Source: a virus. Taken from it: a stretch of DNA of 31,868 nt. The notes below the pieces were generated by a model that saw only the letters and a program-made list of their open reading frames with translations, made no database searches and was not told the origin of the DNA. Both the position numbers and the translations under genes were made by a program. Location: IMG/VR virus record IMGVR_UViG_3300043331_000537, positions 1 to 31,868 of that record. The stretch is one strand, 5' to 3'. Numbering within the stretch: position 1 is the stretch's first letter; each line of letters opens with the position of its first letter. Positions 3,206 through 6,755 of this stretch are shown piece by piece.

Positions 3206-3349
3206 TCAGCGCCCCGTGAGCATCGTCCAGAGCCGTGACCACCACGGCGCGCGGCGGCCGAGCAGCCGCCGGACGTCGAGCACGACCGGGCCGCGCCCGT
3301 AGACGCGCGCGTACTCCGGCCGGTGCGTGTAGTAGCCGAGATCGGTCAC
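3206..3349 (-). CDS. Small basic protein of 47 aa
   Basis: Starts at GTG 3349 in a GTGA overlap with the previous stop, the same coupling seen throughout this operon. The product begins VTDLGYYTHRPEYARVYGRG and ends in a basic, Trp-containing helix (RRAPWWSRLWTMLTGR). It has no cysteines and no clear membrane segment. The end could associate with membrane or nucleic acid. No family recognised; support comes from the junction and a protein-like composition. Confidence 0.5.
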   Translation of the reverse strand: MTDLGYYTHRPEYARVYGRGPVVLDVRRLLGRRAPWWSRLWTMLTGR

Positions 3350-3543
3350 CGCGGCACCTCCTCTATCTCGCGTTGATCGGGACACATGCCGTCATCGGCG
3401 TGCGTCGAGAGCATGTAGCCACAGGCCCAGCACTCCGCGGAGGGCGACAGCGCGCGCCGGCCCGGCTCCGGCGTGAACTTGCCGGGACCCATCGAGCCGC
3501 CGCGGATGCGGCTGACGAGCTGCGCGCGGAGAGCATCGAGCAT
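3346..3543 (-). CDS. Small Cys-containing protein of 65 aa
   Basis: ATG 3543 overlaps the preceding stop as TGATG, and the end overlaps the next start as GTGA. The product has a helical N-terminus, then ECWACGYMLSTHADDGMCPDQ. The CxxC, a His and a further Cys give a plausible zinc-binding site. Zinc-ribbon proteins of this size are frequent in phage early operons, where they often bind nucleic acid or host proteins. The actual role is unknown. Confidence 0.65.
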   Translation of the reverse strand: MLDALRAQLVSRIRGGSMGPGKFTPEPGRRALSPSAECWACGYMLSTHADDGMCPDQREIEEVPR

Positions 3544-3965: not shown

Positions 3966-4135
3966 GACGGCCGCTCCGGCAGCGCGCTCCCGCATTCGCG
4001 CGCGCGGCGCTGATGCTGCTCGGTCGCCTCGTGCTGGATGCGCGCGAGCTGGATCGTGATCGGCGAGACGACCGCCAGCGGCCCCGACGCGAAGACCTCG
4101 CCGCACAGGCCGCAGGAGACGGAGACGGTCGCCAT
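3962..4135 (-). CDS. Small zinc-finger-like protein of 57 aa
   Basis: ATG 4135 overlaps the preceding stop as TGATG. The N-terminus contains CGLCGEVF, a CxxC pair. HEATEQHQ lies about 27 residues later, giving a CCHH arrangement that could hold one zinc ion. A short C-terminal tail follows. It may bind DNA or protein; nothing more specific can be said. Confidence 0.65.
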   Translation of the reverse strand: MATVSVSCGLCGEVFASGPLAVVSPITIQLARIQHEATEQHQRRARECGSALPERPS

Positions 4136-4314
4136 CAGTCCCCGGCCCTCATCGCGCGCACGCCGGCGGCCACTTCGAGGTCGCGCAGTAGCCACTCGAA
4201 ATCCGCGCCCGGGTCCACGCGGTCGGCCTCGAGGCGCGCACGCCACCAGCGCGCGTTGCGCGCGGCCTGATCGAGCCGCGTTTTAATGGAAGTCGCCGGC
4301 GCGTCGGTGCTCAT
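4135..4314 (-). CDS. Small helical protein of 59 aa
   Basis: ATG 4314 lies inside the end of the upstream gene (32-bp overlap), and the stop joins the next start as TGATG. The product starts MSTDAPATSIKTRLDQAARN, then has WWRARLEADRVDPGADFEWL and a short helix. It is charged and amphipathic, without cysteines. Its size and setting suggest a small regulatory or DNA-binding protein. The exact junctions on both sides support it as a real gene. Confidence 0.6.
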   Translation of the reverse strand: MSTDAPATSIKTRLDQAARNARWWRARLEADRVDPGADFEWLLRDLEVAAGVRAMRAGD

Positions 4315-4774
4315 GCTCGTGGATCAGGCATGCGTCGTCATGCACGGGGCACACGATCAGATGGCCGTTGACCGCGCGCGGCGTTCCGAGGTAGCAGCCG
4401 CGGCCCGGCCCGGCCTGCTCCCATGTGACGCCGAGCGACTCGCAGAGCTGGCGGGCTTGGGTCGACGACGCGGTGAGGAGGTACGTCGTCCCGTCCGCGT
4501 GGACGATCGTCGGTGGCGGGGCGGTGGCCGCGCAGCCGGTCGCGAACAGGAGCAGCGCGAGCGCGATCACGGAGCGCAGCGCGCGCGCGATCTCGCACCA
4601 CACGCGATCGGCCGTCTCGGTCGCGATCTCGGGATCACGCGCGAGCACGCGACTCACGACGGACTGATTCACGCCCGCGCGCTCGGCCACGTCGAGCTGC
4701 GTGATCCCGACCGCTTTCATGCGCGCGACGATTTGCCATCGCGGGCGTCGCTTGATTCGGATAATATCCGTCAT
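4283..4774 (-). CDS. Helix-turn-helix protein fused to a lipoprotein-like segment with an HExxH motif
   Basis: 163 aa from ATG 4774; GTG 4807 is an alternative. Residues ~12-60 form a Lac/Xre-like helix-turn-helix (GITQLDVAERAGVNQSVVSR). Residues 68-81 are SVIALALLLFATGC, which reads like a lipoprotein signal core with lipobox-like ATGC. A proline-rich stretch follows, then a Cys-rich domain ending CLIHEHEHRRAGDFH, which holds HExxH plus a later His. This could be one membrane-anchored regulator. It could also be two products in one frame, with a lipoprotein started internally, for example at GTG 4603 (residue 58). The divergent neighbour is another helix-turn-helix gene, so the pair probably forms a genetic switch. 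Confidence 0.65.
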   Translation of the reverse strand: MTDIIRIKRRPRWQIVARMKAVGITQLDVAERAGVNQSVVSRVLARDPEIATETADRVWCEIARALRSVIALALLLFATGCAATAPPPTIVHADGTTYLLTASSTQARQLCESLGVTWEQAGPGRGCYLGTPRAVNGHLIVCPVHDDACLIHEHEHRRAGDFH

Positions 4775-4814
4775 GAGCGGACACACCGTACTCCCGGTGC
4801 GATTCACTCGTCAA
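4758..4814. promoter_or_regulatory. Divergent control region with two inverted repeats and a leftward promoter
   Basis: CACCG-N6-CGGTG (4784-4799) lies between the two regulators. CGGAT-AAT-ATCCG (4758-4770) covers codons 2-6 of the leftward gene. On the minus strand, TTGACG (4809-4814), an 18-bp spacer and TACGGT (4785-4790) form a plausible sigma70 promoter. Its start point would fall only a few bases before ATG 4774, so the message would be nearly leaderless, as known for repressor-maintenance transcripts. The first repeat overlaps the -10. Operator function is inferred. Confidence 0.5.
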
Positions 4815-4838: not shown

Positions 4839-5228
4839 ATGGCGAAATGGCCGGGCATCGGCAAGCGGATTCGCGAACGGTTCCACGCACTTGGGTACGT
4901 CAAGGACGACGGACGGGCCGACGTGATCCGCTTCGCGCTGGATCACCGTTACGTGCACACGTACGTCTACAAATGGCTCGACGACACCACGCCGAGTCGC
5001 GACAACCTCTATCGACTCGCGCGCGATCTGGGCGTCTCGCCGGCGTGGCTGCTGTTCGGCGACGCGCCGGTGCATCCCCCGAAGCACCCGCGGCGACCGG
5101 TCGCGATCTCGGGCGCCTCGGCCCCCGCACCGTCTAAGGTGGACGATTCAGAAAGCAATGCACCTTATCGGAAGTTGAGGCGATTCTTTCTTACGCAGCC
5201 GGTCACTTTGTCCCTCGCCTGCGCGTAG
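4839..5228 (+). CDS. Xre-family helix-turn-helix regulator (Cro/CI-like)
   Basis: 129 aa. ATG 4839 is chosen because GGAGG sits about 8 bases upstream. Residues ~3-75 hold the helix-turn-helix: GKRIRERFHALGY, then YVYKWLDDTTPSRDNLYRLA and RDLGVSPAWLLFGD. This last pattern is typical of phage and prophage repressors that follow the HTH_3 fold. The C-terminal ~50 residues are a Pro/Ala linker and basic tail, with no peptidase domain of the CI/LexA type. It is divergent from another helix-turn-helix gene across palindromic sites, which suggests a lysis-lysogeny or early/late switch. Confidence 0.85.
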   Translation: MAKWPGIGKRIRERFHALGYVKDDGRADVIRFALDHRYVHTYVYKWLDDTTPSRDNLYRLARDLGVSPAWLLFGDAPVHPPKHPRRPVAISGASAPAPSKVDDSESNAPYRKLRRFFLTQPVTLSLACA

Positions 5229-5620: not shown

Positions 5621-5788
5621 ATGCCGGATGTGAAGGTGCCGAGCTTGACGTGCCTGCGCTGCGGTCACGCATGGACTCCGCGGAAGTCGACGGTCTACGA
5701 GTGCCCGCGGTGCAAGAGCCCGCGATGGAACGTTCGCCCCGGCCGGCGCGCGGCGGCGAAGCGACGGAAGGGACCGCGCGATGCCTGA
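5621..5788 (+). CDS. Zinc-ribbon protein of 55 aa
   Basis: ATG 5621 follows AAGGGGGG. The product is MPDVKVPSLTCLRCGHAW..., with a CxxC at residues 11-14 and a second CPRC at 28-31, followed by a basic Arg/Lys-rich tail. This is a classic four-cysteine zinc ribbon, and small ribbons of this kind are common in phages and archaea. It is likely to bind nucleic acid or a polymerase-type partner. It overlaps the next start by 8 bases and is the first gene behind the promoter at 5561. Confidence 0.75.
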   Translation: MPDVKVPSLTCLRCGHAWTPRKSTVYECPRCKSPRWNVRPGRRAAAKRRKGPRDA

Positions 5789-5900
5789 TTTCATCGCGCG
5801 GGTCGTCATCGGCGCCATCGCGGCCGCGCTCGTCGGCGGCCTGCTCGGGCTCGCCATCGAGGTGACCCGCACGCTGGCGCTGCGCCGGCAGAAGTGGTGA
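5781..5900 (+). CDS. Tiny membrane protein of 39 aa
   Basis: ATG 5781 has GGAAGGGACC upstream, inside the zinc-ribbon gene, and the two genes overlap by 8 bases. Residues ~5-27 are hydrophobic (FIARVVIGAIAAALVGGLLG), forming one transmembrane helix, followed by a basic tail (RTLALRRQKW). The tail suggests an N-out, C-in orientation. It could be a lysis accessory or a membrane-active moron. Function unknown. Confidence 0.6.
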   Translation: MPDFIARVVIGAIAAALVGGLLGLAIEVTRTLALRRQKW

Positions 5901-5948
5901 GCGGGCACGGGGCCCGCGCGTCCGACATCGCTGTAAACTGGAGACTCT

Positions 5949-6755
5949 ATGCGATTCCTCATCAGCACCGCACTCCTGTCGTCGCTGCTCGCGTTCGCTC
6001 TCCCTGCCCACGCCGCGCTGTGTGACGGCGTCCAGGACGACACCGCGGCCATCACAACGATGGCCCAAGCAGGGCGCGTCACGTTGCCTGCTGGTACGTG
6101 CCGCGTGCGCGATGTCGACGCGACCGGGCTCGTCGGCCTGATCATCGAGGGCGCCGGTCCGAGGACAGTGATCGTCCAGCTCGATCCGAGCCGGCCGGCG
6201 ATCGATCTGACGGGCTCGACGGATGTCGTGATCCGCGACGTCGCCTTGCGGACCGCCGCTCCGAACTCCGTCCCCGCGCTCTTGCTGATGACGATTCAGG
6301 ACCGGGAGCCGGAGACATGGTATGTGACCGTGGAGAGAATCCGCGCCCGCGGAGACTGGGCGATCGCGCCCCTGTACATGTTCGGCTGGGCGGGGATCAC
6401 GGTGAGGAACACGACGCTCGAGAACACCGCCCCGTGGGGCGCAGCGCTCGTGATCTCGTCCGATAACGGCTGGGGGCTGACCTCATCCTATCGTCAGGTG
6501 AGCGCCGGGCAGATGGGCGTCACGAACAGCTCATTCACCACGATCACGGATTCCCGCCTGCTCGCATGGGGCAGCGACAGCATCGCGCTCGTGCTGCGCT
6601 CGCTCGATCACGTGCGCGTGCGCAACGTGCAGACGATCGCGAGCGGAGTCTGTCAGGTGATGTTCCAGCAGGCGCCGACCTACAACCCCACGATCACGAC
6701 GACGCTCGAAACGATGGCGTTCGACGGCTCGGCGTTGCCGACCTGCGGGGAGTGA
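5949..6755 (+). CDS. Exported right-handed beta-helix (pectate-lyase-like) protein
   Basis: 268 aa, with GGAG upstream of ATG 5949. Residues 1-22 are a Sec signal peptide (MRFLISTALLSSLLAFALPAHA) with AHA-type cleavage. The mature start CDGVQDDTAAITTMAQAG, then LPAGTCRV, is the usual opening of Pectate_lyase_3/tailspike-like beta-helices (DGV-DDTAAI). Repeated short beta strands follow (VVIRDVAL, ITVRNTTLENT, TTITDSRLL, VRVRNVQT). Cysteines near each end could form a disulfide in the periplasm. A signal peptide is unusual for a virion tailspike, so an exported host-modifying or polysaccharide-acting protein is likely. No catalytic residues can be assigned. It lies directly before the Cas12-like gene. 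Confidence 0.8.
   Translation: MRFLISTALLSSLLAFALPAHAALCDGVQDDTAAITTMAQAGRVTLPAGTCRVRDVDATGLVGLIIEGAGPRTVIVQLDPSRPAIDLTGSTDVVIRDVALRTAAPNSVPALLLMTIQDREPETWYVTVERIRARGDWAIAPLYMFGWAGITVRNTTLENTAPWGAALVISSDNGWGLTSSYRQVSAGQMGVTNSSFTTITDSRLLAWGSDSIALVLRSLDHVRVRNVQTIASGVCQVMFQQAPTYNPTITTTLETMAFDGSALPTCGE

Follow-up and report, generated by a model that had tools for sequence, protein, structure and literature searches.

In Listeria, the genes for an exported metzincin and for a lipoprotein are governed by the CI/Cro switch of the cI/cro-mtz-tim locus; the products modify the cell wall and promote lysis (PMC8235301). In mobile elements, the ImmR/ImmA repressor–protease pairs place an HTH repressor beside an HExxH protein (PMC10233336). 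Phage Cro-type HTH proteins are small; their gene opens the early operon and diverges from that of a CI-like repressor. In addition, phrog_27783 and the wider phage set of exported HExxH-x3-GD[FWY]H proteins possess a signal sequence or lipobox, a length of about 90–120 aa, a conserved Cys, and a C-terminal HExxH-x3-GD-x-H. The virus record described here has 31,868 bases (the whole stretch analysed, hereafter the window), and its minus strand carries HK97-type head genes and tail genes. Within it, an HTH gene in the cro position runs straight into the gene for a small phage lipoprotein, and the two modules likely act as two proteins, with a probability of roughly 0.68.

Compared with these systems, the locus shows likenesses and significant differences. 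The Listeria locus also sets a CI/Cro switch beside genes for an exported HExxH metalloprotease and a lipoprotein (PMC8235301), but the genes are separate there, and the lipoprotein, Tim, is the partner of the HExxH protein rather than the HExxH protein itself. A metzincin identity was considered for the window motif and rejected, since its spacing, HExxHxxxGxxH, holds one residue more than HExxHxxGxxH; the Listeria motif, HExxHxxGxxH/D with a Met-turn, is shorter by that same residue. Because the motif spacing differs, the Listeria locus may be regarded as a functional analogue, with no membership claimed. In the case of ImmR/ImmA, the likeness lies in an HTH repressor adjoining an HExxH protein, but ImmA belongs to the ImmA/IrrE family, whereas the HExxH half in the window has no such match and carries an export signal.

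The open frame (4283–4774, minus strand) extends from ATG 4774 to the TAA at 4283–4285, encoding 163 aa (coding part 4286–4774) without an internal stop. The preliminary description, which gave no strand, had claimed a single frame joining a DNA-binding domain to a membrane segment; this is borne out by the open frame, the Pfam HTH matches, and ATGC at residues 78–81. The HTH (Cro-like) module occupies residues 1–65 (4580–4774, minus), with the domain itself at residues 12–58, and exceeds the curated cut-offs of both PF00356 LacI (1.9e-06, 28 bits against 27) and PF01381 HTH_3 (4.3e-05, 23.9 bits against 23). The 163-aa ORF heads a leftward operon that further on encodes, among others, a DUF7694 protein and an exonuclease with a Cas4 domain, and it diverges from a CI-like repressor (4839–5228, plus; phrog_4 match, 2e-07); hence, it lies in the cro position, an arrangement repeated in the syntenic phage L095. 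Unlike the phage Cro-type HTH proteins, the HTH module in the window record has no stop codon after it. The next operon ORF, of 59 aa (4135–4314, minus), starts within the end of the lipoprotein module.

In front of ATG 4774 lies a Shine-Dalgarno-like CGGGAGUAC of moderate strength (−6.9 kcal/mol) with a long spacing of 13 nt, while GTG 4807, a possible in-frame upstream start, is without a Shine-Dalgarno. The minus-strand ATG of the HTH ORF (4774) overlaps a plus-strand ATG (4773) within the CATG at 4772–4775, so that the divergent frames almost touch. For the repressor, ATG 4839, with its best Shine-Dalgarno (−9.3), is a more likely start than the plus-strand ATG 4773. No operator repeat or sigma-70 promoter was recognised between the divergent genes, and the Rfam search gave no match.

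The second half of the frame forms an HExxH lipoprotein module (residues 66–163; 4286–4579, minus), which begins with a signal segment and lipobox (residues 66–81; 4532–4579, minus) and reads LRSVIALALLLFATGC from residue 66. Within the protein, hydrophobicity is highest over residues 69–80, and Cys81, which closes the ATGC at 78–81, stands in an acceptable lipobox. Further Cys residues are situated at 111, 127, 142, and 149. The putative metal-binding end, HEHEHRRAGDFH (residues 152–163; 4286–4321, minus), contains H152, E153, H156, G160, D161, and H163, all of which are invariant in alignment A2, and HExxHxxxGDxH occurs only once among all six frames of the window. From these features, residues 66–163 look like a complete small lipoprotein. 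The lipoprotein half was not recognised in database searches; tblastn with the whole ORF or the second half against phages and plasmids gave no significant match, and the PDB sequence search gave no match.

Relatives were found by motif scans of viral contigs. The pattern HExxHCxxGD[FWY]H yielded 70 stretches, almost all of which encode small proteins that bear a signal sequence or lipobox and end at or soon after the motif. A scan for CxxHExxHxxxGDxH revealed a closer subgroup, e.g., MRALILAALLLAGCDQ...CLTHEIRHVFEGDWH, and two additional scans added a few more members. The relatives found by the scans number about 60 and are small exported proteins with HExxH-x3-GD[FWY]H at the end, most of them stopping at the motif or shortly behind it. 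A pattern with a spacing off by one residue (HExxHxxGDxH) returned seven unrelated stretches, none of them a small exported protein of this kind, and serves as a negative control. In bacterial genomes, a peptide-pattern search found no relative, and the six stretches from a motif scan, on Clostridia or Bacteroidales contigs, look unrelated and were set aside.

When a family profile of 55 members was run against the 503 window ORFs, the 163-aa ORF ranked first (E 3e-4; runner-up 7.3), with the match beginning at the signal segment, at residue 69 (80 when the ORF is read from the upstream stop). Since the family was gathered by its motif, the motif is not independent evidence for membership. When the motif and signal were kept and the middle alone was shuffled, the real score was reached in 3 of 1000 shuffles, so the middle supports membership independently of the collecting motif. 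Furthermore, Cys127 aligns with a Cys that is invariant in 48 of 48 sequences. Nine of the 13 tested members (alignment A1) match phrog_27783, of unknown function, but the window protein does not match this model at E 0.01. Taken with the profile match, the shuffle control, and Cys127, this makes the window protein a divergent family member, and the lipoprotein-like signal and HExxH domain named in the preliminary description have thus found their place in a phage protein family. The window protein differs from the phrog_27783-like set in three ways: its second His is not followed by the Cys found in most members, additional residues separate the motif from the aligned invariant Cys, and an HTH domain is read in the same frame. 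The family (loci L013–L089 and L108–L113) is broad and uncharacterised; in several of the loci, the gene sits after large tail or structural-looking genes. For one A1 member, Pfam gives a weak, tentative hit (E 0.0055) to Spackle, the superinfection protein of T4.

The predicted structure of the family representative L029 (pLDDT 84, pTM 0.70) shows a strand-helix-strand-strand-helix arrangement with the HExxH on the last helix. When it was compared with solved structures for a zincin-type fold, only weak rows came out, with a Z of 4.0 for AQ_1354 (1oz9) and of 2.6 for a DPC-repair protease (6mdw) among them; the best rows of the fold search are glyoxalase-like or AQ_1354. As the best rows have Z ≤ 4, no fold is claimed, and these rows serve as a lead only. 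In the AlphaFold2 model of the window ORF (overall pTM 0.35), a single helix spans residues 48–80 across the junction and the second half is poorly predicted; this helix may merely reflect the hydrophobic signal segment. A fold search with the P0001 model gave nothing meaningful.

Separate homologues of the two halves, for which the preliminary description had proposed a search, exist as separate genes in relatives. An HTH in frame with the lipoprotein was not recognised in any inspected member, and most of the open frames begin only shortly before the Met. In L015, a separate 55-aa gene ends in a 4-nt overlap (ATGA) with the lipoprotein ATG; this 55-aa gene is HTH-like by eye only, and Pfam and PHROGs give no match. 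At least 18 members start within the end of an upstream ORF, 12 of them with an overlap of 4 nt and L044 with one of 13 nt, the upstream ORFs in this count being mechanical calls. In L095, whose recombination-region protein is 62% identical, the cro position is taken by a stand-alone HTH protein about 70 residues long, and such a lipoprotein is absent. The join of HTH and lipoprotein was seen once; the sole near-identical record, IMGVR_UViG_3300036842_000014, ends within the last 20 codons of the ORF.

At the junction, the 163-aa frame scores highest in codon preference at all tested positions, which indicates that both halves are coding, with no compositional frame change between them. GC by codon position is coding-like in the HTH half and in the lipoprotein half, and the RNA around the junction folds less strongly than shuffled sequences do. 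A CG dinucleotide run of 11 nt (4579–4589) is located here, the longest of the 151 runs of at least 6 nt in the window. With one CG more or one base fewer, the HTH would run into the frame ending at the TGA at 4567–4569 (minus, +1 frame), which overlaps GTG 4570 as GTGA and would end the HTH gene. Such a stop alone is not significant, as out-of-frame stops are frequent (seven in about 164 codons of the TGA frame), and the frame arithmetic is no evidence of a sequence error.

Three in-frame codons are candidate internal starts of the lipoprotein. The start near 4603 suggested in the preliminary description corresponds to an in-frame GTG at residue 58 (4601–4603, minus). CTG is a rare start codon; the in-frame CTG at residue 66 (4577–4579, minus) would yield MRSVIALALLLFATGC, the start form found in relatives, many of which begin MRxxI...LL..GC with ATG where the window has CTG. 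The classic lipoprotein rule, with the lipobox Cys at 15–35 from the start and K or R within the first seven residues, holds from GTG 4603 and CTG 4579 and fails from GTG 4570 and ATG 4774. GTG 4603, CTG 4579, and GTG 4570 are all without a good Shine-Dalgarno (−3.0, −3.0, and 0 kcal/mol, respectively), as are a few other candidate starts in the window, many others ranging from −6 to −11 kcal/mol. The alignment to complete relatives starts from residue 66–68, so the lipoprotein module seems complete, without a linker to the HTH.

The preliminary description left two options, a membrane-anchored sensor/repressor or two products from one frame. The second is favoured, because the halves are apart in relatives, the module is complete from residue 66–68, and none of the inspected members is fused; the sequence as such admits one protein or two. 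On this reading, the HTH part would be a cytoplasmic Cro-like repressor of about 65 aa, opposing the divergent CI-like repressor. The second part would leave the cytoplasm by way of its signal sequence, be lipidated at Cys81, and be retained on the outside of the cytoplasmic membrane; there, its HExxH-x3-GD-x-H end probably binds metal, and a role in the envelope may be expected. The two products could arise from an in-frame internal start at GTG 4603, CTG 4579, or GTG 4570; alternatively, the CG run may be slightly longer or shorter in the true or ancestral sequence, a small indel that would lead to the usual short gene overlap. Counted against two proteins are the missing stop between the modules in the assembled sequence and the internal starts without a good Shine-Dalgarno.

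Alternatively, the modules could form a true fusion, one protein from ATG 4774 that would place the HTH in the cytoplasm and, across a membrane segment, the lipidated HExxH domain on the outside; signal peptidase II or an outside signal might release or re-set such a membrane-tethered Cro. The frame is open and coding-like all along, the best Shine-Dalgarno-like site precedes ATG 4774, and the predicted helix 48–80 crosses the junction; yet that helix, in a model with a pTM of 0.35, may come from the signal segment only, the modules have no linker, cleavage at Cys81 would split the halves, and the single join contrasts with the separate state of all inspected relatives. Such a fusion is therefore unlikely. 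A single occurrence and unrecognisable internal start signals would also fit a recent mutational fusion, by a lost stop or an indel, that harms one or both products and represents a passing mutant of one phage lineage; the key residues and codon bias kept in both modules speak against it, and it is considered quite improbable.

Two further alternatives concern the second half itself. An HTH joined to a cytoplasmic HExxH protease of the ImmA/IrrE type, cleaving a repressor, would suit an HTH and an HExxH beside a phage repressor, and ImmR/ImmA pairs are known (PMC10233336). But the Pfam protease models of that family give no match even at E 1, and the HExxH part is preceded by an export signal and falls into a different family, making this type very improbable. 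Long spurious ORFs are common in the window, so the second half might encode no protein and be open by chance alone, the genome being GC-rich, but such a view is hardly credible given the family match, the codon bias, the unique motif, and the shuffle control. More speculatively, and only as a long shot, the protein could be a genuine membrane-tethered Cro, an early regulator in which the signal segment of the lipoprotein half keeps the DNA-binding half at the membrane and lipoprotein processing or an outside signal shifts the lysis–lysogeny decision, or slippage at the CG run could switch between fused and separate forms. Were the fusion real, envelope processing would be linked to the phage genetic switch. 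With two proteins, as preferred here, the locus illustrates that a striking domain fusion can arise where two common phage genes adjoin or overlap. The more useful lead is the family of small exported phage proteins that invariably end in HExxH-x3-GD-x-H, a family both widespread and uncharacterised.

Several minor features were observed around the locus and in the syntenic phage. A small ORF of the same operon (3349–3540, minus) contains Cys pairs (ECWACGYML...CPDQ) and is zinc-ribbon-like, without a significant family match. A 268-aa ORF (5949–6755, plus), on the strand opposite the tail genes and without a Pfam or PHROG match, has an apparent signal sequence. In L095, a different small lipoprotein (MMRLLVLVLTLGLAAGC; 5661–5939, plus), without a family match, follows a small membrane-protein-like ORF and is possibly the product of a lysis gene.
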